NCBI GenBank assembly: GCA_028711345.1
Contig: JAQTSK010000010.1
Span: 1 to 42,925, forward strand
DNA: 42,925 bases
DNA from: Candidatus Peribacteraceae bacterium
GTDB lineage: Bacteria > Patescibacteriota > Gracilibacteria > Peribacterales > Peribacteraceae
Direction of reading: 5' to 3'
Within the stretch, counting starts at the first letter, position 1; each line of letters opens with the position of its first letter. The position numbers and the translations under genes were made by a program. Shown one piece after another: positions 4,690-38,409 of this stretch. The notes under the pieces were generated by a model. The model ran no database searches and was not told where the DNA came from. It was given only the letters and a program-made list of their open reading frames with translations.

Positions 4690-5010
4690 ATGCCGCAGAC
4701 CGTCACCGACGCAGACTTCAAAACTGAAGTGCTGGAGTCCTCTCTCCCCGTTTTGGTCGACTTCTTCGCACCGTGGTGCGGACCGTGCAGAGCCATGCAC
4801 CCCGTCATGGAAGCGCTGGACACCGAGTACGCCGGCAAAGTGAAAATCGTAAAAGTGAACGTCGACGAGCAGCAAGGGACAGCCGGCGAGTACGGCGTCA
4901 TGAGCATCCCCACGTTCATCGTCTTCAAGAACGGTCAACCGACGAAGACGTTTATGGGCGCCCAGCCGAAGGAGACCGTGAAGCAGGTGCTGGACCAAGT
5001 GCTGGCCTGA
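4690..5010 (+). CDS. trxA: Thioredoxin
   Basis: A 106-residue single-domain thioredoxin. The active site APWCGPC has Cys30 and Cys33, and the cis-proline is Pro74 (SIPTF). Length and order match classical bacterial TrxA, a cytoplasmic protein-disulfide reductase fed by thioredoxin reductase (not in the window). It starts at ATG 4690 right after a pyrimidine run. It is probably co-transcribed with the CsoR-type repressor 34 bases upstream. Its last 59 bases overlap the 3' end of the convergent gene at 4952-6712. Confidence 0.93.
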   Translation: MPQTVTDADFKTEVLESSLPVLVDFFAPWCGPCRAMHPVMEALDTEYAGKVKIVKVNVDEQQGTAGEYGVMSIPTFIVFKNGQPTKTFMGAQPKETVKQVLDQVLA

Positions 5011-6712
5011 TCCTCGTAAGCAGCTCTTCCCGACTATCGAAGGGCAGCAGCGACAGCTTCCCAAAGTAATTCGAAAACGGGATCGGCGTGACCTGCACGG
5101 AGTCTTCTGCCAGAAAGAGTCCGAGAATCATGCCGGTATTGGTCGGTGCATCGAACTGGTCAAAGAGAAAATTGCCGAGCGAGTAGGCGATGGGCTTCCC
5201 GTCATAATACTCAATCGGCTGCACGACGTGCGGACCGTGCCCGACGATGGCATCCGCGCCCGCATCGATCAGCAGCCGCGCGATCTCCCGTTCGCGATCG
5301 GACGGCGCTTGGTGGTACTCCTGTCCCCAGTGAATCGAAAGAACCACCCAATCAGCTGATTTCTTCCGATCCTCCACGATCTTCTGCGCGGCATGGACAG
5401 CGATGGCTTTGCGCGAATCGTCGAAGGCACAGAGAGCGACTTTTTTCTGCTGCACATTGAAGGTATGGCACGGTTCATCCGGCTCAAGGAGCGTCATGCC
5501 GTTCGTTCGCGCGAACTCCTGCGTATCGGCAACACCTTCGTCAAACGCATCGTAGACATGATTATTATTGAAGCTCAGCACATTCACCTTCATCCGCTGC
5601 AACATGCTCTTCGCGAGAACCGGATCACTCTTGAGGACGTATCGAACCGCTGCCTCTTTCGTCGAATCCGTCACCGGCCCCTCCTGATTGACGACCGTCA
5701 GATGGGACCCGAGGAAGAAACGATCATTGGGTTGTGCAATACCATCAAGCATCCCTGCTTCACCATGCTTCGCTCCAATCTGCCGAATGCCTCTGGCGAA
5801 CATCGAGTCGCCGTAGAAGAGCATGCTGATGCCGGCTTCCTGCATCGGCTCACCGGCAGAGAAGGCCAGATACACGTGACTCGTCGTCTCGGCGATCTCC
5901 GGCTTTCCTTCAATCGACGCACTGTTGGTGTGATCGCGGTACACGATGCGCTGCGCTCCGCGCATCTTCAGGAACATCTGCAACGTCGCGAGTGACGCCG
6001 GCGAGTCCACTTCCAAGCGGGGGATGAACTCCAGATCGAAATTTTCAAGTGTGGAAAGGGACGTCGCGTCGTGAAAGTCGGCGACCCACTCCGGCACGTA
6101 GTGCGAGAAATCGACGCTCGCAACGACCAACGCATCATCCGGAAGGATGCGGTCGAGTATGCGTGCCAGCGCCTCCGCCTCCTCCATGGTCGTCGTCCCC
6201 TGCACCAGAACGGGCAGAACGGGAACATCGCCGAATGTGTGCCGGATGAATGGCATGTGTGCGCTGATGCCGGCCTCGTAGATGAAGGCATTGCGGTCCT
6301 GCCGGATGAGCGGAATACCCGATAGCTGATCGGCAAGACCCTGATCGACCGCTAGCGATCCGTACGGCGTTGCGTACCCGATGTCCGTCGTCACGATCTT
6401 CGCCTCACCCGCCCCGTCGTGATCGGGGCTTACGATGACCACAACACTGGGATGCTGCTCACGAAGCGCGGCGTACGCCTCCGCCAGATGACTGCCGGCC
6501 AGCAGATGGTGCGGGAGGATGACGCCTTTCACCTGTTCTCCGAGTGCGTCGGTCGACTCGGCATGCTGAAAATATCCATCGTACTGCGCGGAACATTCGA
6601 AGTCAGACTGATATTTCTGTCTCTCGGGTTCAGGCACATTCTCCGCGCGGCCGCAGGAAGAAAGAGTCAAAGCAGCCGAGAGCAGACAGGTTAACGCTTC
6701 GCGCCTCCCCAT
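4952..6712 (-). CDS. Lipoprotein fusing a Memo/AmmeMemoRadiSam-B domain to a CapA-type domain
   Basis: A 586-residue protein. The N-terminus is a lipoprotein signal (LTLSSC, lipobox Cys20). Residues about 62-285 are a Memo-like domain: GVILPHHLLAGSH (66-75), VSPDHDG (95-100) and VASVDFSHY (198-205), the His/Asp pattern of the metal-binding Memo fold. Residues about 293-560 are a PGA_cap/CapA metallophosphatase-like domain: FYGDSMFARG (299-308), FNNNHVYDA (381-389), SIHWGQEY (459-466), GHGPHVVQ (491-498) and SLGNFLFDQF (511-520). CapA relatives act in poly-gamma-glutamate capsule synthesis. The start overlaps the end of the upstream gene by 22 bases, so the two are an operon. The C-terminal tail overlaps trxA. 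Confidence 0.85.
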   Translation of the reverse strand: MGRREALTCLLSAALTLSSCGRAENVPEPERQKYQSDFECSAQYDGYFQHAESTDALGEQVKGVILPHHLLAGSHLAEAYAALREQHPSVVVIVSPDHDGAGEAKIVTTDIGYATPYGSLAVDQGLADQLSGIPLIRQDRNAFIYEAGISAHMPFIRHTFGDVPVLPVLVQGTTTMEEAEALARILDRILPDDALVVASVDFSHYVPEWVADFHDATSLSTLENFDLEFIPRLEVDSPASLATLQMFLKMRGAQRIVYRDHTNSASIEGKPEIAETTSHVYLAFSAGEPMQEAGISMLFYGDSMFARGIRQIGAKHGEAGMLDGIAQPNDRFFLGSHLTVVNQEGPVTDSTKEAAVRYVLKSDPVLAKSMLQRMKVNVLSFNNNHVYDAFDEGVADTQEFARTNGMTLLEPDEPCHTFNVQQKKVALCAFDDSRKAIAVHAAQKIVEDRKKSADWVVLSIHWGQEYHQAPSDREREIARLLIDAGADAIVGHGPHVVQPIEYYDGKPIAYSLGNFLFDQFDAPTNTGMILGLFLAEDSVQVTPIPFSNYFGKLSLLPFDSREELLTRIRPALGPAPASRSPSAGRP

Positions 6713-24965: not shown

Positions 24966-25877
24966 TCACCCTGCAGCCGGCGACGCCATTTGCGGCATGC
25001 GTAGCGACCCTGTCGCCGATTCCGCCCGTCTCTCGAATGCGGCAACCGCATGCCGGTACCCGGCAGGTGTTCCCGTATCCAAGCGGACTCCATCGACGAT
25101 GCATCCGTAGATATTCATCGACGTGCGAGCGGCGTTCAGTGCATCGATGAGGCGAATTTCTCCATCCTGCGGCACCGACGCGACATCCCGGAGGATCCGG
25201 AAGAGAGCCGCGGGGATGATGTACCGTCCGACAACGCCGAGTGAACTGGGAGCAAAATCCGGCGGAGGTTTCTCGACAAGTCCGTTGATTTTCCGGATGC
25301 GACCGGCGGGATCGTCATCAGGTGAACGTACTTTCCAACCCGTATCCAGACTGACGACGCCGTACAGTGAAATCCGTTCCGGCGGAACATCCTCCAAGCA
25401 CAGCACGCAGCAATCGTGATCCTGAGGAAGCGCATCGTATGCCTGCACAAGTTGTTGCAGACCGCTCTTCTCACCGAGAATGTAGTCGTCACCGAACAGC
25501 ACGGCGACATCCCGTTCCTGAAACCGGCGACCGGCTTGCAGAAGCGCATGGCCGTCCCCGCGCTGTTCGTGCTGGTACGCCACCTCGATGCGCACCTGAT
25601 CGTAGCGTGCAAGCTCGTCGAGCACGTCTGACTTGCCGCGAAGCCGAAGCAGGGTCTCCAGCGTCGGCGACGGAGCGAAGTACTGTGCGATGGCTTCCTT
25701 GCCCGGGCTGATCACCAGACAAATGTCAGTGATCCCGACGGAAAGGCATTCGTCGACGAGCAGAGCGATCATGGGTCGGTTCCCGACGGGCAGCAGTTCC
25801 TTGGGCACCGCCTTGGTCCACGGGAGAAACCTCGTCCCGAGACCGGCGACCGGCAAGATGGCATGAGTGCACTGCAT
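24966..25877 (-). CDS. galU: UTP-glucose-1-phosphate uridylyltransferase
   Basis: A 303-residue nucleotidyltransferase making UDP-glucose from UTP and glucose-1-phosphate. The GalU signature is plain: ILPVAGLGTRFLPWTKAVPK (positions 7-26, nucleotide-binding loop and Lys), PVLLGDD-type VLFGDDYI (about 149-156), and GLVEKPPPD (about 197-205). Length and order match bacterial GalU. It precedes, on the opposite strand, glycosyltransferases that would use UDP-sugars, so it is probably the precursor supplier of that locus. The start at 25877 follows a pyrimidine-rich run on the minus strand. Confidence 0.95.
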   Translation of the reverse strand: MQCTHAILPVAGLGTRFLPWTKAVPKELLPVGNRPMIALLVDECLSVGITDICLVISPGKEAIAQYFAPSPTLETLLRLRGKSDVLDELARYDQVRIEVAYQHEQRGDGHALLQAGRRFQERDVAVLFGDDYILGEKSGLQQLVQAYDALPQDHDCCVLCLEDVPPERISLYGVVSLDTGWKVRSPDDDPAGRIRKINGLVEKPPPDFAPSSLGVVGRYIIPAALFRILRDVASVPQDGEIRLIDALNAARTSMNIYGCIVDGVRLDTGTPAGYRHAVAAFERRAESATGSLRMPQMASPAAG

Positions 25878-26062: not shown

Positions 26063-28372
26063 ATGGAAACCGTAAACGTTTCTCTCCACTCCTCCCCAGC
26101 CATGCCCGTCGCGACAGCACTGCCGGCACACACATTCGACCGAATCTCTCCGACTCGCCGCGGGAAGGAACGACGCCAGACGCGACGCAACATCGAGCCG
26201 CCCGACATCAGTGTCGTCATTCCGATTTTCAATGAACGGGCGAACCTGCAACCGATGATCGAACGGACGATCGACGCGCTCGAGACGATGGAATGCCGTT
26301 TCGAAATCATCATCGTTGATGACCACTCGGACGATGGAACGGAGGAACTGTTGCGATCCCTGGGCAACATGGCAGAAATCCGGATCCTGCAGAACGGCGT
26401 GACACATGGAAAAGCGGCCGCGCTGATGAAAGGCCTGAACGCAGCACGGGGAGAGTCTCTCGTCATGATCGACGGAGACCTCCAGTACCCGCCGGAAGCG
26501 ATACCGGTCATGCTCGCGAAGCTGAAGACATACGATGTCGTGGTCGCCAACCGCAAGCGGCGGCACACGTCGGCGGTCCGGTCGGCACTCAGCGGCATCT
26601 TCCGCACCATGATCGGCGGGCTGCTCCTGTCGCTGCACACGGACGTCCAGTCCGGCTTGAAGGTCTTTCGCGCCGACGTCTTCCGCTGCCTGACACTGCA
26701 CCCGACGCCGTGGGGGTTCGACGCCGCCTTCCTCTTCCATGCGCAACGGATCGGCTGCCGCATCGGAGAAGTGGACATCACATTCAGTGAGCGGAAATAC
26801 GGGAAGAGCAAAGTGCATCCGCTTCGGACGGGACCGGAGCTCGTCTGGGGCGCACTGAAGTTGCGGCTGACAACGCTCCCGCTGACCGTATTTCCGTTCC
26901 TGTCGTACCCGCACCCGTCGGAGTATCGGGGCAGCGGTTTCACCAACACCGTCGACTACCTGTTCCTCCCCGAGATAGCAACGATCAAACGACACCTGTC
27001 TGTGGAAATCGTGTCGTTATTGCTGTTCGGTTTCACGGGCATTGCAGGCTGCATATGGCTCTTCAGTTTCCTGTCCGGTTTGTCCGCCATCCTCACACTT
27101 TCCGCTTCCGTTTCGGTGATCTACCTCAGCCTCATCATCTTCAAAGCATGGATCGTTCTGACTGCCAGAAGGAAGAAACCGCTGCATGCGTCCGCACAAG
27201 CCATCCGGTCGATCCGTGAGGAGGATCTTCCCGTGTATACGGTCATCATTCCCCTCTTCCGTGAAGCCCCTGTCATCGCGCAGGTCCTGGCATCACTCTC
27301 CCGGATCAACTATCCGCCGGACAAACTGGATATCATCATCACGCTCGAGGAGTACGACCGGGAAACCCGCGAAGCCATCAGACAGGCTCATCCCCCGAAA
27401 CACTTCCGGACGCTGATCCTGCCGAACGTCGAGCCGAAAACGAAACCCAAGGCGCTGAATGTCGCGTTCCTTCAGGCTCGGGGGGACTTCATCGTCATCT
27501 TCGACGCGGAAGTGATCCCCGAACCCGATCAGCTGAAGAAAGCGTACCTGGCGTTCCGCGACCACCCGTCCGTCGCCTGCGTCCAGACACGTCTGGATCA
27601 CTACAACGCACATCAGAATTGGATGACGGCACTCTTCAATGCGGAATTCTCGTTCCACTACGACCTCTTCCTGCCGGGGCTGCAGAAACGCGGCTACGTC
27701 CTGCCGCTCTCGGGGCACAGTACGCATTTCCGACGCACGGTGCTGGAACAGATCGGTGCGTGGGATCCGTACAATCTCACGGAGGACTGTGACATCGGCA
27801 TCCGGCTCTTCCGCAGAGGATTCCGGACGGACATCATCGATTCGCTGAGCAACGAAGAGGCGACGAGTACGACGGGGTCGTGGATCGCGCAGCGGTCACG
27901 GTGGATGCAGGGATTCATCCAAACCAGCATCGTGCATCTCCGCCACCCGCTTCGTCTGAAGGATGACGTGGGAGGGTGGGGAAGATTATGGGTGTTCCTG
28001 ATCATCGTGCCGGGCAGCGTACTCATGAATGTACTGAATCTCTTCTACTGGCTCCTGCTCGGCACGTGGATCGTCACGCAATCGACGGTGATTCAATCGT
28101 TGTTTCCGGTACCGGTGCTGTACATCTCCATCCTCTCGTTCGCAATCGGCAATATCCTGTTCATGTACATGAACCTCGTCGGCTTGTACCAACGGGGACG
28201 ATACCGTCTGGTGAAGTACGGTCTGCTTTCGTTCTTCTACTGGTTCCTGCTGGGATACGCAGCGTTGCGTGGATGCGTCCACTTGCTGCTGAAACCGTAC
28301 AAGTGGGAAAAGACGGCGCATGGAAATTTCATTCTCCCGCCACATGATGCGACGCTCTCGGCCGGTCGTTGA
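26063..28372 (+). CDS. Two fused GT2 glycosyltransferases (DPM1-like plus cellulose-synthase-like)
   Basis: A 769-residue protein. Residues about 48-280 form a first GT2 domain like polyprenyl-phosphate mannosyl/glucosyl transferases: ISVVIPIFNERANL, IIIVDDHSDDGT (83-93) and MIDGDLQYPP (135-144, the metal-binding DGD). Two helices follow (about 310-360). Residues about 390-640 form a second GT2 domain of the processive kind: VIIPLFREAPVI, FDAEVIPEP (from 480), LTEDCDIG (TED at 573-575, catalytic base) and QRSRW (610-614), the signature of synthases that pull a growing beta-glycan through the membrane. Three or four helices end the protein. The start may be 26063 or 26102. It overlaps the next gene by up to 53 bases. 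Product unknown; a beta-glucan is inferred from neighbours. Confidence 0.88.
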   Translation: METVNVSLHSSPAMPVATALPAHTFDRISPTRRGKERRQTRRNIEPPDISVVIPIFNERANLQPMIERTIDALETMECRFEIIIVDDHSDDGTEELLRSLGNMAEIRILQNGVTHGKAAALMKGLNAARGESLVMIDGDLQYPPEAIPVMLAKLKTYDVVVANRKRRHTSAVRSALSGIFRTMIGGLLLSLHTDVQSGLKVFRADVFRCLTLHPTPWGFDAAFLFHAQRIGCRIGEVDITFSERKYGKSKVHPLRTGPELVWGALKLRLTTLPLTVFPFLSYPHPSEYRGSGFTNTVDYLFLPEIATIKRHLSVEIVSLLLFGFTGIAGCIWLFSFLSGLSAILTLSASVSVIYLSLIIFKAWIVLTARRKKPLHASAQAIRSIREEDLPVYTVIIPLFREAPVIAQVLASLSRINYPPDKLDIIITLEEYDRETREAIRQAHPPKHFRTLILPNVEPKTKPKALNVAFLQARGDFIVIFDAEVIPEPDQLKKAYLAFRDHPSVACVQTRLDHYNAHQNWMTALFNAEFSFHYDLFLPGLQKRGYVLPLSGHSTHFRRTVLEQIGAWDPYNLTEDCDIGIRLFRRGFRTDIIDSLSNEEATSTTGSWIAQRSRWMQGFIQTSIVHLRHPLRLKDDVGGWGRLWVFLIIVPGSVLMNVLNLFYWLLLGTWIVTQSTVIQSLFPVPVLYISILSFAIGNILFMYMNLVGLYQRGRYRLVKYGLLSFFYWFLLGYAALRGCVHLLLKPYKWEKTAHGNFILPPHDATLSAGR

Positions 28373-31118
28373 TCGACTGCCACCGCTGTCGGCCAATGAA
28401 TACGCGCTCGCCGCATGCGCCATACTTCTGTGCATCGGCATCGCCGCACACCTCCATGCGCAGGGGCTCCTGAAAGCACTGACAGATCAGAGTTCACACC
28501 TGAATTTCGCACGCCTCACCATCGACAGCATCACACCCGGCGTCAGCCAACTGGGATTCTGGCCGCCGCTCCTGCATGTCCTCCTGATCCCGTTCATCAC
28601 CGTGCCATACCTGTACCAGAGCGGACTTGCCGGCATCTGTGTGCTCCTGCCCTGCCTCGTGGTGAGTACCATTCTGCTTCAGCGCATCGTCATCCACCTC
28701 ACGCACGATGCGGCACTCGGAATGACCGCGGGACTCCTGTTCCTCGTCAATCCCTACATCCTCTACTACGCCGCGACTCCGATGATGGAAGTGCTGTTCA
28801 TCACGAACATCTTCCTGACGGCGTTCGCGCTGCTGCGATGGATGGATACGGATCGCTTGCAATGGCTGGCGTTGACGGGCATCGCCGTCTCTCTCGCCTG
28901 CCTCTCACGCTTCGAAGGATTCGTTCTGTTCCCCATCACCACGATGATCATCGGAGTCCGGATGTATCTGCGGCGGGCAGACTACCATCAAACCGAAGCG
29001 CTGCTGGTCCTCTTCGGGACACTCGCGGTCATCGGCGTCGGAGTGATCATGATCTACAGCTCGGTGTACGGGCAGAGTCCCGTGGCGTTCGCAGGCGGGT
29101 CGTGGCTCCGGGATCCGTCACCCGCACTCCGCGCTTCGCGGTACAGCATCCTGAACACGCTGCGGGACAGCGTCAACGCATCCTCCTATATGCTCAGCCT
29201 CCCCGTCGTCATTGCGTCGGTCGTCAGCGCCCCGGTCCTCTGTCTGCTCAGACGATGCACCATCGAACGTTCCGGTGCGCTTCTCGTTCTCTTGAGTCCC
29301 CTGCTCTTCGTACTTCTGGCACTCTTCATGGGATTCGTCACCATCACCGTGCCTCCCGACGGCGCATTCAACAATGATAGGTACGGACTCACGTGGATCG
29401 GCTTCGCAATCGTCTCGCCGCTCCTCCTGTTCCATGAACTGAGGAACCGGCTGAAAACGTCGAAGCCGTTTGTGACCGTCATACAACCGGGTTTCAAACA
29501 CCTGCTGGTCGTGATCTTCACGTTCATGAGCGTTCGCCTGTTCTCCGTCGCCTTCGCCGAGAATTTCAGCGTCATTCGGGACAACGTCAACTCCCCTCTA
29601 CCCGAACAAGTGGAGGTCGCCTCCTACCTCCGAACACAGTACGGAGGAGGGAGGATCCTCGCCGCACGCGTGGATAACGACCCCATTCTCGCCGCCGCCG
29701 GAATCCCCCTGAACCAGTACTTGTATGAAGGAAATTTCCGCTACTTCGAACAGGCGGTGCGCGAGCCCTGGTTCTTCGCGCAGTGGGTGCTCATGCACAA
29801 TCCGGAAGGAAGCACCGACGGATGGGTGGAGCAGAATGAACCTGTCTACCGCGTGCTCGGCACTTCCACGGAGTTTCTACGATACTACGATCCCGTCCTC
29901 CGGAACGGGAAAAGGAGTCTGTTCAGGCTGAATGAAAATCACCTGCTGCAACTGGCAAAGGATCGCTCCTACAACCTCGCACGGATTCCCTCGCTCAATC
30001 CCGATGCCCCCCTCTGGAGTCCGTCGACGGTGTACGCAGGGATGGAACGTCCGAGAGTCGGACCCTTGACCGCCGACGAACTGGTGGAATCGAAGCCGGA
30101 AATCCGCAGCGGACTTCTCGATTTCTACTGGGGCGATCTCAAGCCGCTGTTCGCGAACGGCGTGATCACGGAAGACGGAAAGGGAAACTCCGAATCGCAG
30201 AGCTACGCACTGCTCCAATCGCTCTGGGTCGATGATCCGGACACCTTCGCGATCGTCTGGGAATGGACGAAGTCTCGCCTGCAGCAATCGGACGGCCTGT
30301 TCGCCTGGACATTCCACGCGGTGTCGGACGGCACGGTGGTCATCGATGATCCGAATTCCGCAACCGACGCGGACACCGATATCGCGTACGCTCTGCTGCT
30401 CGCGTCCAAACGATGGTCACGCCCGCAGTATGCGGACGATGCTCGGAAGATTCTTGACGGTATCTGGAACCGGGAAACCGGAATGGTGCAAGGGAAACGA
30501 CATCTCACCGCGGGTAATTGGGCAATGGCATCGGGATCGCTCGTCTTTAACCCGTCCTACTTCTCACCGGCCGCGTACCGGCTCTTCTCGGAGGAAGATC
30601 CCGCACACGATTGGCTGTCTCTCATCCCGACGGGATATGACGATCTGGTGCAAACATCGACGCTGTACGAGGAGCGCAATGGGGTCTTCCTGCCGCCGGA
30701 CTGGGCGGAACTGGACATCAAAACGGGTGCCTACCGTCGATTCCCTGGGAAAGCGGACTCACTCGAGTACTCGTTCGACGCATTCCGCGTCTTCTGGCGC
30801 ATCGCGGAGGATGCCCTGACATCGAAGGATCCGAAGGCCACGGAATATCTGACATCCATCAGCGCGTTCGATACCCCGCTCCAGCCGGACGGAACATTCT
30901 GCACAGTCCGTCTCTCCGATCCGGACAGATGCTTCTTCCATATGGGAGGGCTCGCGGGACCGGTGAGTCTCTGGACCGTGCGGCAGCCGGAGCGCGCGAA
31001 GGAACTCCTGAGACGCTTCGCGGTTCCCGACGGCAAAGTCGGTCTGCCGAAACAGGCATCATTCTACGAGAAGAGCTGGTACTGGTTCATGCTCAGACAA
31101 TGGAGCCATGCGGGATGA
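28320..31118 (+). CDS. Fusion of a GT-C-like polytopic membrane domain with a GH8 endoglucanase
   Basis: A 932-residue protein. Residues about 27-410 hold about ten to eleven helices with the plan of a family-39-like GT-C glycosyltransferase (DQSSHLNFARLTIDSI in the first outer loop, then WPPLLHVLL). After a linker with soluble sequence (about 440-560), residues about 590-925 are glycoside hydrolase family 8 (BcsZ/CelC type): SESQSYALLQSLWVDD with the general acid Glu625, and SATDADTDIAYALLLASKRW with Asp683/Asp685 in the conserved D-A-D motif. GH8 enzymes cut beta-1,4-glucan (cellulose) and usually sit as separate proteins in cellulose synthase operons. Here it is joined to a membrane transferase and co-transcribed with the synthase-like GT2 gene. 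Confidence 0.85.
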   Translation: MEISFSRHMMRRSRPVVDRLPPLSANEYALAACAILLCIGIAAHLHAQGLLKALTDQSSHLNFARLTIDSITPGVSQLGFWPPLLHVLLIPFITVPYLYQSGLAGICVLLPCLVVSTILLQRIVIHLTHDAALGMTAGLLFLVNPYILYYAATPMMEVLFITNIFLTAFALLRWMDTDRLQWLALTGIAVSLACLSRFEGFVLFPITTMIIGVRMYLRRADYHQTEALLVLFGTLAVIGVGVIMIYSSVYGQSPVAFAGGSWLRDPSPALRASRYSILNTLRDSVNASSYMLSLPVVIASVVSAPVLCLLRRCTIERSGALLVLLSPLLFVLLALFMGFVTITVPPDGAFNNDRYGLTWIGFAIVSPLLLFHELRNRLKTSKPFVTVIQPGFKHLLVVIFTFMSVRLFSVAFAENFSVIRDNVNSPLPEQVEVASYLRTQYGGGRILAARVDNDPILAAAGIPLNQYLYEGNFRYFEQAVREPWFFAQWVLMHNPEGSTDGWVEQNEPVYRVLGTSTEFLRYYDPVLRNGKRSLFRLNENHLLQLAKDRSYNLARIPSLNPDAPLWSPSTVYAGMERPRVGPLTADELVESKPEIRSGLLDFYWGDLKPLFANGVITEDGKGNSESQSYALLQSLWVDDPDTFAIVWEWTKSRLQQSDGLFAWTFHAVSDGTVVIDDPNSATDADTDIAYALLLASKRWSRPQYADDARKILDGIWNRETGMVQGKRHLTAGNWAMASGSLVFNPSYFSPAAYRLFSEEDPAHDWLSLIPTGYDDLVQTSTLYEERNGVFLPPDWAELDIKTGAYRRFPGKADSLEYSFDAFRVFWRIAEDALTSKDPKATEYLTSISAFDTPLQPDGTFCTVRLSDPDRCFFHMGGLAGPVSLWTVRQPERAKELLRRFAVPDGKVGLPKQASFYEKSWYWFMLRQWSHAG

Positions 31119-31187: not shown

Positions 31188-32927
31188 CTACCAAGCAGCC
31201 CGCTGTGCAAGTCCGAGAGCGTACTCCGCCCAGAACGTCCCGGCGGAGGGACCTCCGTTGCATGTCCCGTCGGATTCCCCGGGTGCCTTGATCCAGAGAT
31301 AGGCATCGACGAGCGCCGTTCCCGTCGAAACCGTCGGCACACGACCGAGTGCGCGACCGGACGGGTTGCACCACTGACTTCCGTCAGGACCGAGTCCGTT
31401 CCGACTGACGTCAACGACGAAATGTTTGCCGGACAACAGGGAAGAAATCTGATTTCCGTACTGGAAGCTCGTCGTATCCGTATCGAAGTTGGAGACATTG
31501 AGCGCAAAGCCGTCAGCCTGAGCGATACCGGCCTGCTGCAGGCTCGTCGCCATCTCGGCGGGGGCGACCCAACCGGCATGTCCTGCATCCAGATACAGTT
31601 TCACGCCCGCATGCGCTTTGAACGTCGACACGGCATCCTGCAGGAGCTGCATGCGGGTCTGCCGGTCTGCGGCCGAGAGACAACTGACGAGTGCGACTGC
31701 ATCCGGCTCCAGAATGACGATCGCTCTGCCGGAACCGATGGCGGATGCGATGGAACGGATCCATGCGCGATACGCATCCGACGACGACGCGCCTCCGGCC
31801 GAGTATCCACCGCAGTCACGCTGCGGAATGTTGTACACCACGAATGTCGGAACGGCACCCTGCGCCGCAGCCGCACTCATCGTCGTTGAGACGTCGGACC
31901 CGACATTCGCGTTCCATGCACCCAGCCACTGCGACCGAGCATGGGTGGCGATCTTATCCAGTTGCCGGGCGTCGGCGGGACGACTCGCCCGCCAGGCGTC
32001 CGCCTGCGACTTCGCCGGTGAATCCGGTTGCACAAACAAGCTGATTCCCGACAGAGGATTGCCGCCCGAAGGAACCGACGTCACGCTGCTTGCGGATGAT
32101 GTTGAAGACGAACCGACAGTTCCGCCGGTGGAGATGGACAGCGTCCGATGGTCCAGGAGGACTCCGGCGGAATCGTACACACGGAACGTGAGCGCGTAGG
32201 GACCGGATCCGCGCCAGACCCACGATGTCAGATCGACGAGTGATTCTTTGTGCGGTCCGTCCTGCTGACTGTCGGCCATCGTATTTTCCTGACCGCCGTC
32301 GACGCTCCATGTCGCGCGGTAATCCGCCGGTGCGACGTTCGGGAGCTGTACCTTGAAGGGCTGGACGCCAGAGAGAACCGCACCGTCCGTCGGCCACCAG
32401 ACGTTGATCGACGGAGCTGCGGAGGACGTGCTGCTCGCACTCGATCCGCCGCCGGTGGCGGAAGAGGTGCTGCTTGAACCGCCGGTGGCGGGAACGTTCA
32501 CGTGTACCGTGATGGTTTTCCGACCGAGGAGAACGCCTGCCGTGTCCTTGGCGACGAACGTGATGGCATACGCTCCGGTCGACTGCCACTTCCAACCCGA
32601 TAGAACGACAGTCGCCTTCTTGTGGACAGGCTTCTGCAAGCTCGAACTCATGAGATTCAACGCACCGTTGTCAACCTGCCAATACAACTTGTACGACGCG
32701 AGAGTCCGGCCGGGGACAACCGCTTTGAATGTCTCGGTCGCCCCGAGGGACGAACCGTCGATCGGCCACCAGTTGTCGATGGCAACGCCGGATGCCGTCG
32801 CCGTCTGCGTGGAGACGACGAGCGAGGGCGAGAGGATCGTGAAGAGGAAGACGAGAGAGAAACCGACGATGAAAAGTCCTTGTTTCCACGACGAAACAAG
32901 GCACGGGGAACAAGATTGTCGACGCAT
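31188..32927 (-). CDS. Secreted GH6 cellulase with two N-terminal Ig-like repeats
   Basis: A 579-residue protein. A hydrophobic segment (about 16-36) is an export signal or anchor. Two repeats of about 90 residues follow, NWWPIDGSSL...QVDNGALNLM (51-145) and VWWPTDGAVL...SVDGGQENTM (176-268), each ending in a KDTAGVLLGRKT or YDSAGVLLDHRT turn; they look like Ig/fibronectin modules joined by Ser/Thr linkers. Residues about 293-579 are GH6: FVVYNIPQRDCGGYSAGG with the acid Asp371, IVILEPDAVALV with Asp409, and late IKAPGESDGTCNGGPSAG. GH6 enzymes cut cellulose with inversion. The enzyme probably acts outside the cell on the glucan made by the neighbouring genes, or on external cellulose. Confidence 0.93.
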   Translation of the reverse strand: MRRQSCSPCLVSSWKQGLFIVGFSLVFLFTILSPSLVVSTQTATASGVAIDNWWPIDGSSLGATETFKAVVPGRTLASYKLYWQVDNGALNLMSSSLQKPVHKKATVVLSGWKWQSTGAYAITFVAKDTAGVLLGRKTITVHVNVPATGGSSSTSSATGGGSSASSTSSAAPSINVWWPTDGAVLSGVQPFKVQLPNVAPADYRATWSVDGGQENTMADSQQDGPHKESLVDLTSWVWRGSGPYALTFRVYDSAGVLLDHRTLSISTGGTVGSSSTSSASSVTSVPSGGNPLSGISLFVQPDSPAKSQADAWRASRPADARQLDKIATHARSQWLGAWNANVGSDVSTTMSAAAAQGAVPTFVVYNIPQRDCGGYSAGGASSSDAYRAWIRSIASAIGSGRAIVILEPDAVALVSCLSAADRQTRMQLLQDAVSTFKAHAGVKLYLDAGHAGWVAPAEMATSLQQAGIAQADGFALNVSNFDTDTTSFQYGNQISSLLSGKHFVVDVSRNGLGPDGSQWCNPSGRALGRVPTVSTGTALVDAYLWIKAPGESDGTCNGGPSAGTFWAEYALGLAQRAAW

Positions 32928-33156: not shown

Positions 33157-34449
33157 TCAGAGGAAATATCTCCCCTGATTGATGCCCATGAAGAGAATGG
33201 CGGATCCCGCCGCCCAACACGCGATGATCGTCCATTCCACCGTACGACTCCTGTGTTCGCGGAACAGGAGAAAGAACGCCAGCGGAACCAGGTAGTACCG
33301 CTGCTCAATGAGCCATGATGAAGTGAGGAACAGAAAAGAGACGGGATAGAGAAGGTAGGACGCAGGCAGGACGAGACGGGTGACCAGCAGCGACAGCACG
33401 GATGCGAGAACGGGAAGGAAGAACAGCGCCTTCCATGCCATGCCGGATGTGAAGAGGAGCAACAGTCGATTCCGGAGGAAGAAGGAATACTCCGCCTGAT
33501 TGTCCGGGTGATCGTTGACGAACGTGATCAGGAAGAGCAGGGCGAACAGCAGGATGAGCGAGAGAGCCGGCACCCACCTGCCACGCAGAAGCTGCGCAAG
33601 GCGCGGGAGGTTTGCGACATGCAGAGGGAGAAAGAGAAAGAAGAAGAGGAAGAGGAAGAAGTACACGTTTCCCCAGTGAAACGACGGGAAAGGGTGAGCG
33701 GAGACATCCCCCACCGCCACGCCCCCGTTGAAGAGAAGGAACACGGCAAAAAGTACAAAGAGGTGAAGAAACGCGCGCGTATCCGCGATCCACCGCAGCA
33801 GAGCGCCCTGCGCGGACACCCATCGCAACGAGAGCGTCGAGAGCTCCGCATGCCGCTCCATGAACAAGCGGATACCGTGGAAATACCCTCCCGACAGGAG
33901 GAGGAATACCCAGAGGAACATCGCCCAGACGATGTTGTTCTGTCGCATCAGAATGCTCACGGCGACACACACTGCCGCAACCGACGGCTGCCTCCTGAGC
34001 ACGGCGTACAGAGCGAGGAACACGGGCACGAGGGACGGGACGTCCGTGTAGATCAGGAAAAAGAGCGGGAAGAGAAGGGGCAGCAGACCGAACTGAAGGG
34101 TGCGAACGACGGCTCCGGCAGGATCCAATCTGCGGGCAACGATAAAGAACGCGGGCACGGAACACGCGGCGAGAAGGAAAGAGAACAGGCGCAGTGCCGC
34201 GAGAGACCGGAACCCCGTCAGTGCGGAAGGAATGGCGACGATCAAATGGTAGACCGGCAGCTGGGTGATGAGAGGATGCAGTGTCATATCTCCGCGTGCA
34301 AATCGTTGGATCTGATCACTGTGAACGACTTCGTCAGCGATGGCAGGATGCGTCGCGATCAGCGCGAAAGCGGGAATGAGCACAAAGAAAAATAATCCGG
34401 CGATGATGACATGACCGACTGGACTGCGATGCACGCGGGAAGTGATCAT
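33157..34449 (-). CDS. ALG10/DIE2-like alpha-1,2-glucosyltransferase (GT59-type) membrane protein
   Basis: A 430-residue membrane protein with about 11-12 helices that matches the layout of eukaryotic ALG10. It has a DE-x-x-H motif in the first outer loop (IADEVVHSDQIQRFARGD; Asp39, Glu40, His43), followed by LHPLITQLPVYHLIVA. Next come IYTDVPSLVPVFLALYAVLR, SILMRQNNIVWAMFLW and FNGGVAVGDVSAHPF. In eukaryotes this enzyme adds the last glucose to the lipid-linked N-glycan in the ER. Here it should act on a lipid-linked or growing glycan at the outer face of the membrane (inference). It lies on the same strand as the GH6 cellulase, 229 bases downstream of that gene's start codon but upstream in transcription order (the GH6 gene follows it). 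Confidence 0.8.
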   Translation of the reverse strand: MITSRVHRSPVGHVIIAGLFFFVLIPAFALIATHPAIADEVVHSDQIQRFARGDMTLHPLITQLPVYHLIVAIPSALTGFRSLAALRLFSFLLAACSVPAFFIVARRLDPAGAVVRTLQFGLLPLLFPLFFLIYTDVPSLVPVFLALYAVLRRQPSVAAVCVAVSILMRQNNIVWAMFLWVFLLLSGGYFHGIRLFMERHAELSTLSLRWVSAQGALLRWIADTRAFLHLFVLFAVFLLFNGGVAVGDVSAHPFPSFHWGNVYFFLFLFFFLFLPLHVANLPRLAQLLRGRWVPALSLILLFALLFLITFVNDHPDNQAEYSFFLRNRLLLLFTSGMAWKALFFLPVLASVLSLLVTRLVLPASYLLYPVSFLFLTSSWLIEQRYYLVPLAFFLLFREHRSRTVEWTIIACWAAGSAILFMGINQGRYFL

Positions 34450-36366: not shown

Positions 36367-38409
36367 TTACAGCGCTTCCACGTCGGCAAGAATGGCGTCG
36401 ACGTCAGATGCGAATCGTTCCATCGCGACTGCTTCTCCTTCGCCGGCAGGAGGAGCATCGAATACGAACGTGCAGGTGACTTCGTTAGAAAAGGCACCGG
36501 TGGTAGCGTCACTTACGAAGACCTTGACCGTGCCGATCCGTCCGTCCGTGTAGGAAACCCCTTGAAGCGTGCCATCCGCAGTTACCCACGCATCCATATC
36601 ACGAACTTCTGCAATCCGGAACGTGAGCTGTGCTTCGGGATTCACAACCGTGACACCGACGTCAGCCGGAGTGAGGGTGAAGAGCGTATTGACGGTCCGA
36701 TGGAATTCGCGCGGCTCGATCTCCGGAGCGACATTGGCATCGGGAGTAACCACAATGGTGAATACTGCGGATGTCTCAGCGTTATCAACGTCCTTGGCTG
36801 TGACGTGCAGCGTCACCGACGTCTCATCCGGATTTGCGGTGATCTCAGCAATCCCATCGGGGCCGAGTACCACAGTCGCGGTCTCACTCGACGCCCCCGT
36901 AATGTACACAACCGTTCCGTCGGGATCAGCAACGAGTCCGTTGAGATCGAGTCTGAGTGTTTTTCCCGCCTCCATCGTGAGAAGCGGTTGAGGATTCACG
37001 AAGACGGGCGGCAGGTTCTGATCGGGAGTAACCACAATGGTGAATACTGCGGATGTCTCAGCGTTATCAACGTCCTTGGCTGTGACGTGCAGCGTCACCG
37101 ACGTCTCATCCGGATTTGCGGTGATCTCAGCAATCCCATCGGGGCCGAGTACCACAGTCGCGGTCTCACTCGACGCCCCCGTAATGTACACAACCGTTCC
37201 GTCGGGATCAGCAACGAGTCCGTTGAGATCGAGAGAGAATGTCTTTCCGGCCTCCATCGTGAGAAGCGGTTGAGGATTCACGAAGACGGGCGATTGGTTC
37301 ACTCCTCGGGAGATCAGTGTCGCAGTAGCAATGTCGGAATGATCGATACCGTCAGATGCAGTAAAAGTGAATTGATCAGTTCCGTGATAATTCTGATTTG
37401 GCTGATACGTAAATGTCCCATTGGCCCCCAGGCTGAGTGTCCCGTTGGTCGGGAGGGACTGAGGATGGACGCTGACTCCGTCCCCATCCGGATCCCCTAC
37501 ATCGACTTTGCCGGAAATCGGCTGGCCGGCGTAACCGGAGAAAACACCGTCGACGGCGGTTGGAGCAAGATTCTGCTCCAGTTTCAGCTTCACATTCCCG
37601 ACTGCCACAAGACCGTTCGTGTCCCTGACCGCGACTTGGAAATTGATAGTACCGACATAGCCCCGTCTCGGGAGGAAAGTGAATGATCCGTCCGCTCCAA
37701 ACGCTATGATCTCGCCGGACTCAGGCGGAGGATTCCTGAGGAGAACCGCCGTCGCACCGGAACCGATGTTAAAACCGTTCAGAACATTGCCCATGACCGG
37801 CTGTTCATGTACACGGATATCCGGCAATGGATCTTTCTGCTCAGGAGAGGAGTCGGGGCCTCCCTGAAGATTATTGATCGTATTGATCGTCAGCAGAGGA
37901 TCTGCAGCGGTGATATCACCGTCGCCATTCGTATCCAAAAACGGTGGAACCGGCTCATCAGGTGCCGTACCGGTACCCTGCGCATTGATTCTGTTGATGA
38001 CCAGAAGCACATCCTGCGCATTGATGTCTCCATCACCGTTGGCATCCGGAAAACGAAGGTAAGTGACGCCAATATTCTCGAATTTCCGAATAATCTGCCG
38101 CTGGGTCGGGCTGAATGCCTGCGCTTCCCCTTCCGCACTCCCCTCCGGATTTCGACGAGCCGAACCGAGTGTCGATGCGAGCTCATCTGTCACTTTCTCA
38201 GATACAGCCGTAGTCCCCTGAGCAATGAACGGTACCTGCGATTCTGAAGGAGGTGCAACATCAGCCGAACAATCGGAGGCATCGATTCCGAGATCGCCTG
38301 CGGCAAGAAGCTTTCTCTCTTCCAACGCTTCTATTCCAAGTGGCCTTCGCTTTTTGATTCTTTCCAACTGCCGCCTTCCTCCGAAGGTCGGAAAAAAATT
38401 GTTGTGCAT
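36367..38409 (-). CDS. Surface protein with LEPR-XLL-like start, dockerin-like loops and cadherin-like repeats
   Basis: A 680-residue exported protein. Residues 24-37 read LGIEALEERKLLAA, a LEPR-XLL-type motif (the Pro is replaced) known from large secreted planctomycete-type proteins. Two EF-hand loops follow, DANGDGDINAQD (122-133) and DTNGDGDITAAD (159-170), each ending in an LLTINxIN helix: together a type-I dockerin-like module. Beyond about residue 200 are beta-sandwich repeats of the cadherin/VCBS kind (LPTNGTLSLGANGTFTYQPN, YHGTDQFTFTASDGI), then two almost identical 94-residue repeats, and a C-terminal domain rich in acidic residues. Likely role: cell-surface adhesion or scaffold. 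No cohesin partner is visible here. Confidence 0.85.
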   Translation of the reverse strand: MHNNFFPTFGGRRQLERIKKRRPLGIEALEERKLLAAGDLGIDASDCSADVAPPSESQVPFIAQGTTAVSEKVTDELASTLGSARRNPEGSAEGEAQAFSPTQRQIIRKFENIGVTYLRFPDANGDGDINAQDVLLVINRINAQGTGTAPDEPVPPFLDTNGDGDITAADPLLTINTINNLQGGPDSSPEQKDPLPDIRVHEQPVMGNVLNGFNIGSGATAVLLRNPPPESGEIIAFGADGSFTFLPRRGYVGTINFQVAVRDTNGLVAVGNVKLKLEQNLAPTAVDGVFSGYAGQPISGKVDVGDPDGDGVSVHPQSLPTNGTLSLGANGTFTYQPNQNYHGTDQFTFTASDGIDHSDIATATLISRGVNQSPVFVNPQPLLTMEAGKTFSLDLNGLVADPDGTVVYITGASSETATVVLGPDGIAEITANPDETSVTLHVTAKDVDNAETSAVFTIVVTPDQNLPPVFVNPQPLLTMEAGKTLRLDLNGLVADPDGTVVYITGASSETATVVLGPDGIAEITANPDETSVTLHVTAKDVDNAETSAVFTIVVTPDANVAPEIEPREFHRTVNTLFTLTPADVGVTVVNPEAQLTFRIAEVRDMDAWVTADGTLQGVSYTDGRIGTVKVFVSDATTGAFSNEVTCTFVFDAPPAGEGEAVAMERFASDVDAILADVEAL
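36739..37302 (-). repeat. Two 282-bp tandem repeats inside the surface-protein gene
   Basis: Units 36739-37020 and 37021-37302, period 282 bases (94 codons). They are nearly identical except near the ends of each unit (for example AGTCTGAGTGTTTTTCCC against AGAGAGAATGTCTTTCCG). The sameness at silent sites shows a recent duplication or gene conversion. Confidence 0.95.

Follow-up and report, generated by a model that had tools for sequence, protein, structure and literature searches.

It has long been asked why cellulose synthases come with a cellulase, and the locus described here raises the question in an unusual setting: what does a GH8 endoglucanase domain do at the end of a GT-C-fold membrane module, in a gene that directly follows and overlaps a cellulose-synthase-like gene? 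The window, by which we mean the whole stretch of DNA analysed, comprises 42,925 nucleotides from a Candidatus Peribacteraceae bacterium (GCA_028711345.1, contig JAQTSK010000010.1). The features that bear on the question are these.

24966–25877, minus strand: GalU-like UTP-glucose-1-phosphate uridylyltransferase (TIGR01099, 8e-60, under the equivalog cut-off)
26063–28372, plus strand: bifunctional GT2 protein, 769 aa, a DPM-like domain followed by a processive GT2 (Pfam, NCBIfam, PDB and motifs)
28320–28372, plus strand: 53-bp overlap of the GT2 and fusion frames (ORF coordinates)
28320–31118, plus strand: GT-C::GH8 fusion protein, 932 aa (single open frame, domain matches and orthologues)
28320–30047, plus strand: GT-C module, residues 1–576, with ~11 predicted transmembrane helices up to residue ~413 and then an extracytoplasmic domain (alignments, AlphaFold2, Foldseek)
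30120–31115, plus strand: GH8 endoglucanase domain, residues 601–932 (PF01270, CtCelA alignment, Foldseek)
31188–32927, minus strand: GH6 cellulase-family protein, 579 aa (PF01341, 1e-66)
33157–34449, minus strand: DIE2/ALG10-like GT-C protein, 430 aa (PF04922, 7e-35)

The original prediction placed a GT-C-like membrane domain and a GH8 in one chain, and this architecture stands: the 28320–31118 frame (+) encodes 932 residues with no internal stop in the ORF translation, PF01270 matches its second half, and Foldseek recovers a GT-C fold. When the halves are searched separately, GH8 lies above its cut-off (111.4 bits against a curated 24; E=6e-32 at residues 623–828), and PMT_2 falls below threshold, with GT-C recovered by fold comparison. 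Catalytic numbering follows Clostridium thermocellum CelA (CtCelA, 1cem), which matches the fusion protein with a phmmer E of 3e-18. On the 1cem alignment, E625 (30192–30194) corresponds to the acid E95, D683 (30366–30368) to D152, and D820 (30777–30779) to the base D278. The residues first singled out, E625, D683 and D685, were correctly numbered and the first two align to catalytic positions of CtCelA; the base D820 had gone unmentioned. A base at the CelA position, as with D820, is the pattern of the GH8a (cellulase) subfamily. Judged by E625, D683 and D820, the fusion's GH8 is a predicted catalytically complete endoglucanase. For the complete fusion, a structure model built from a five-row alignment has low confidence (pLDDT 59.5) and is usable at fold level only; in Foldseek, its second half matches CelA (3e-8) and BcsZ (1e-7) and its first half ALG12, STT3 and DPY19. 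The best solved relatives of this GH8 are CelA, CMCax and BcsZ, and the NCBIfam BcsZ model NF008305 scores the fusion at 103.8 bits, below its equivalog cut-off of 299.

Residues 1–576 are modelled as a GT-C-fold membrane module, an assignment made from the predicted fold and from relatives above the PMT_2 cut-off because the protein's own sequence evidence is weak: its PMT_2 match, at residues 111–219, reaches 22.0 bits against a cut-off of 26.1. The PMT_2/GT39 cut-off is passed by the homologues at L043 (31.7 bits) and L022 (27.5 bits). AlphaFold2 models residues 1–576 with moderate confidence (mean pLDDT 66, pTM 0.64), and comparison of this model with the PDB returns ALG12, STT3, DPY19, PglB, AglB, ArnT, ALG3, Pmt and Emb enzymes. 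Approximately the top 27 Foldseek matches are all GT-C (probability ~1.0, best E 2.6e-4). A GT-C profile searched against the PDB by sequence gave nothing useful, and fold comparison alone was informative. In an alignment of the window protein with its homologues in two Peribacteria genomes (G027 and G198), a Woesebacteria locus (L022), a Wildermuthbacteria locus (L023), L043 and more distant members, the invariant GT-C residues are D56 (28485–28487), H60, E157 (28788–28790), R197, N352 and R354, and an SR[FY]EG motif at 196–200 is common to the family along with D56, H60, E157, N352 and R354. The six residues are kept in most of 25 family members, and D56, the acidic residue of the first extracytoplasmic loop, in all aligned members save L059 and L089. 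Fold, TP..E and SR[FY]EG-type motifs and an outside-facing first-loop acid are all shared with the GT-C superfamily (ArnT/PMT/ALG12/STT3), of which we know of no member with a C-terminal glycoside hydrolase or in a cellulose-type operon. Positively charged loops occur at the N-terminus and at residues 218–223 and 310–314; from these and from helix parity, we infer a topology of ~11 transmembrane helices that would put D56 on the outer side together with the whole chain beyond residue ~414, GH8 included.

Such a chain might be an assembly join of two genes or a degenerate, pseudogene-like artefact: the related genomes are metagenome-assembled, the window genome is in 93 contigs, and the ORF is contiguous in silico only. 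This is extremely improbable, however, given full-length orthologues in Candidatus Peribacteria RYN_377 (G027; L003/L020) and Peribacteraceae STF1_123 (G198; L010/L021), which are 47–49% identical across both halves and share the joint, the synteny and intact catalytic residues, and given that eight more of the Patescibacteria genomes sampled also encode fusions. The fusion is more than chance, because it recurs with its neighbours in these two other Peribacteria genomes and its halves are nearly equal in G+C (0.591 and 0.595). The notion of an orphan oddity was likewise rejected on its recurrence in other Patescibacteria genomes. A single-protein query over genome contigs gave no matches, and an alignment-based profile search recovered four loci. 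In a plasmid tblastn with the fusion as query, the matches listed cover the GH8 half only, at no more than 32% coverage, and none of them spans most of the query.

The window, G027 and G198 have one order in common, a DPM::GT2 gene overlapping GT-C::GH8 by tens of bases at most with GH6 close by, and an overlapping GT2 > GT-C(::GH8) order with GH6 nearby is conserved across the window, L020–L023 and L043. In addition, G027 has a second, paralogous GT2/GT-C pair without GH8. At L043, from another Patescibacteria family, DPM::GT2, GT-C, GH8 and GH6 form one cluster in which GT-C and GH8 are adjacent separate genes of the same operon, and the GH8 tree groups this GH8 with the three Peribacteria GH8 domains (support 100/100). 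The fusion therefore reflects adjacent genes of one operon that were joined (or, in the other direction, split), and the separate genes at L043 are Rosetta-stone evidence. A comparison of flanks through the neighbouring cysteine-synthase-like gene did not find an empty site. At the Wildermuthbacteria locus, the GT-C gene is separated from GH6 by a gene for a 1193-aa secreted-looking protein (L023:9768–13349), whose sequence looks like that of a sugar dehydrogenase carrying PKD/LamG-like domains.

The upstream protein is itself bifunctional. Its residues ~48–280 form a DPM1/ArnC-like polyprenyl-phosphate sugar synthase domain and residues ~380–760 a membrane processive GT2 of the cellulose-synthase/PgaC type with TED and QRSRW motifs, which are largely invariant across five loci; the DxD position reads DAE. 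Pfam matches are Glycos_transf_2 (1e-46) and Glyco_tranf_2_3 (9e-48), and PDB matches are ArnC (2e-22), DPMS (2e-19) and BcsA (2e-11). NCBIfam gives PgaC 134 bits and CelA (TIGR03030) 80.6 bits, both under their equivalog cut-offs; that of TIGR03030 is 699.1 bits, and the window GT2 is therefore no BcsA equivalog. By these scores, it is ambiguous between the CelA and PgaC types. The 53-bp frame overlap with the fusion makes translational coupling probable, and GT2/GT-C overlaps of about 4–41 bp also occur at L020–L023 and L043. GT-C enzymes use lipid-phosphate donors, and since a processive GT2 also adjoins every fusion found, the GT-C half as a β-glucan polymerase was rejected. This revises the proposal that synthesis and cleavage are tied together: cleavage is linked to a synthesis machine, but the predicted polymerase is the upstream GT2, and coupling would run through the operon and a complex rather than within one chain.

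The window GH6 protein carries a signal-like segment at its N-terminus, along with two N-terminal repeats of Ig-like appearance, and a GH6 gene also lies beside the operon in G027, G198 and L043. The DIE2/ALG10-like GT-C protein belongs to a family (PF04922) known as the eukaryotic Dol-P-Glc glucosyltransferase. In a survey of the family Peribacteraceae, such a protein is present in 12 of 74 genomes, including 3/3 of the fusion-bearing ones, so it is probably associated with the fusion system; in G027, it lies on the same contig as the fusion. The GalU-like neighbour is a possible UDP-glucose supply, associated by position. No BcsB, BcsC or PilZ was seen by Pfam among the window proteins scanned, which were those of the larger ORFs. 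Elsewhere in the window, a protein of 680 aa combines dockerin type I repeats with four Ig domains of bacterial type (36367–38409, −), and a Memo-like domain is fused to a PGA_cap (capsule synthesis) domain (4952–6712, −).

To see how widely this arrangement occurs, 380 Patescibacteria genomes were sampled evenly, with the profile search restricted to Patescibacteria. GH8 is present in 23, nine of which encode GT-C::GH8 fusions (the window genome and L084–L091), always with GT2 adjacent and with a fused N-terminal GT-C of ~500–580 residues. Most of these nine have an N-terminus of the ArnT-like PMT/PMT_2 type that bears a DE motif (for L084, L085 and L090 the type was assigned from this motif and from similarity to the others), and that of L089 matches the window-type profile. 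In a further 12 of the 23, GH8 is a separate gene that adjoins genes for a PMT_2 protein and a CelA-like GT2, and GH6 often accompanies the three; the unfused-locus GT2 reaches 270 bits against CelA. The remaining genomes are L043, with its cluster of separate genes, and G635, which lacks this GT2/GT-C setting. GH6 is found in 13 of the 380 genomes, nine of them also with GH8 against ~0.8 expected (Fisher p=1.2e-9), mostly within a few kb of it. Two loci (L057:6742–9405 and L058:7037–9616) have a window-type GT-C whose fused hydrolase is instead a cellulase-like domain of GH5, and in both the fusion gene comes right behind that of a processive GT2; GH5 is identified by Pfam in L057 (E=5e-19) and judged from sequence motifs in L058. 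The fused label requires three changes on the GH8 tree, whose deep branches are long and unsure. These three changes, two GT-C types and two GH families indicate that the GT-C::hydrolase design probably arose more than once. The original prediction came with the remark that its author knew of no described protein with this domain order; the literature searched yielded parallels and no description of a GT-C::GH8 architecture. The fusion is not unique, however: at least 11 Patescibacteria genomes have it, and two others have a form with GH5.

The same survey bears on whether the two halves simply perform unrelated tasks, with GT-C glycosylating envelope proteins or lipids, GH8 together with GH6 degrading external glucan for food, and fusion following from accidental adjacency. 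PMT-type GT-C enzymes commonly glycosylate proteins or lipids, and GH6 and GH8 are degradative in many bacteria. We nevertheless regard this as improbable: synthase-type GT2 and GT-C adjoin or are fused to GH8 in 22/23 GH8 genomes, fusions have arisen from GT-C modules of two types and hydrolases of two GH families, GH8 is tethered to the membrane beside the synthase, and GH8 and GH5 are the known synthase-associated families.

Catalytic state differs between fused and separate GH8 domains. Separate GH8 proteins keep the acid in 13/13 cases and the full E/D/D triad in 12/13, the exception being L103 with E at the base. Fused domains are intact in 7/12, including the three Peribacteria fusions (the triad is also intact in their unfused homologue at L043), and have lost at least one catalytic residue in 5/12, none of them Peribacteria (Fisher p=0.015 for fused versus separate, uncorrected for relatedness). 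The GT-C active site is degenerate in L059:4970–6469 and L089:6527–9265, both of family f108; in L089, the GH8 acid is lost along with it. Either half can thus apparently persist without catalysis in some lineages. The expectation that the window GH8 is probably active on the outer face is supported by its full set of residues and predicted outside location; cleavage cannot be the sole reason for the fusion, because several related fusions have lost GH8 catalytic residues. In a separate observation, L087:6093–10857 encodes two tandem GH8-bearing membrane proteins: the acid of the first GH8 is changed from E to R, and the second keeps its acid and has an N-terminal membrane region of a different kind.

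Since either half persists without catalysis in some lineages, a model stays alive in which the GT-C half mainly docks or guides GT2, as an analogue of BcsB, CcsB or GlxA rather than an active transferase, and the hydrolase is a glucan-handling arm for which cutting is optional. L059 and L089 lack GT-C catalytic residues beside a strongly conserved partner GT2, five GH8 domains lack catalytic residues yet remain fused, and synthase partners are non-homologous across cellulose systems (PMC11022532). We consider this model rather unlikely, because GT-C active-site residues are kept in most family members, ArnT-like fusions retain their DE motif even when their GH8 is catalytically dead, and in most fusion loci GT2 comes joined to a DPM-like donor-synthase domain.

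On the best reading, which is fairly probable, the fusion protein serves a synthase-dependent β-1,4-glucan (cellulose-like) system as its membrane and extracytoplasmic subunit. GT2 synthases make their polymer on the inside and export it by extrusion, with the associated hydrolases located outside. In the proposed sequence, the GT2 half of the upstream protein would polymerise and extrude glucan, and its DPM-like half would probably make a polyprenyl-phosphate sugar. The fusion protein would sit beside the GT2 protein, its GT-C half most likely transferring lipid-linked sugar outside the membrane, as an optional step, onto the emerging glucan or its start or end acceptor. GH8, carried outside on the C-terminal domain of GT-C, would then cut the nascent glucan in a BcsZ-like manner to trim, release or un-jam it, and the secreted GH6 from the next gene may process it further out. 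A β-1,4-glucan is suggested by GH6, GH8 and the GalU-like neighbour; the polymer could be another β-glycan, because the window GT2 scores higher with PgaC than with CelA (134 against 81 bits). The DPM-like domain on GT2 suggests that polyprenyl-phosphate sugar is made on site for GT-C. Against this reading, no known cellulose system, to our knowledge, includes a GT-C. We put forward only tentatively that GT-C decorates the extruded β-1,4-glucan outside with DPM-made polyprenyl-phosphate sugars and that the tethered hydrolase cuts the chain or guides it, the product being a coat of branched or capped cellulose. If so, this would be an undescribed Patescibacteria polysaccharide machine, with four activities in two overlapping genes.

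We regard the system as a variant of the synthase-dependent exopolysaccharide systems. It resembles the Bcs operon in having an extracytoplasmic GH8 with an E/D/D triad encoded with a processive GT2. Unlike BcsZ, a free periplasmic protein, the GH8 here is fused to a GT-C membrane module, and the locus differs further in its GT2 without a CelA-equivalog score and in having no BcsB, BcsC or PilZ among the genes scanned. In E. coli, cellulose secretion requires BcsZ activity; unrelated cellulases substitute for it, and Cel9M or CMCax can take its place (PMC11379886). In clostridia, the synthase-associated endoglucanase CcsZ, of GH5, takes the place of the GH8 BcsZ (PMC7710045), and a GH8-to-GH5 displacement is recorded in Acidisarcina (PMC9693552). 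The alternation of GH8 and GH5 on GT-C mirrors these replacements and fits a BcsZ-like role, with CcsZ paralleling the GT-C::GH5 fusions of L057 and L058; CcsZ is, however, a separate protein, and the Ccs locus has neither GT-C nor a DPM domain. Streptomyces CslA-GlxA-CslZ (PMC11022532) likewise makes a coat-type glucan with a cellulose-synthase-like GT2, a translationally coupled partner and a glucanase, but the partner is a copper oxidase and the hydrolase is unfused. Tunicate CesA (PMC7464555) also joins synthesis and cellulase-family domains in one chain. There, in a eukaryote, GH6 with a catalytic signature reported as not conserved sits on the GT2 synthase itself, whereas here GH8 sits on GT-C.

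The recurrence of GT-C::GH8 after a cellulose-synthase-like gene points to a so far undescribed route by which a cellulose-like coat is made and trimmed. It also suggests that certain Patescibacteria with reduced genomes produce a surface polymer resembling cellulose, and that a lipid-linked-sugar (GT-C) step is part of this, a combination absent from the literature searched. The GH8, GH5 and dead-GH8 forms on GT-C offer a natural experiment that sets cutting against merely holding the chain. At L084, the GT-C::GH8 fusion is directly followed by a GH113 domain protein (L084:8621–10348; PF22612, E=6e-47), which suggests that the polymer of this lineage contains mannan or is mixed.
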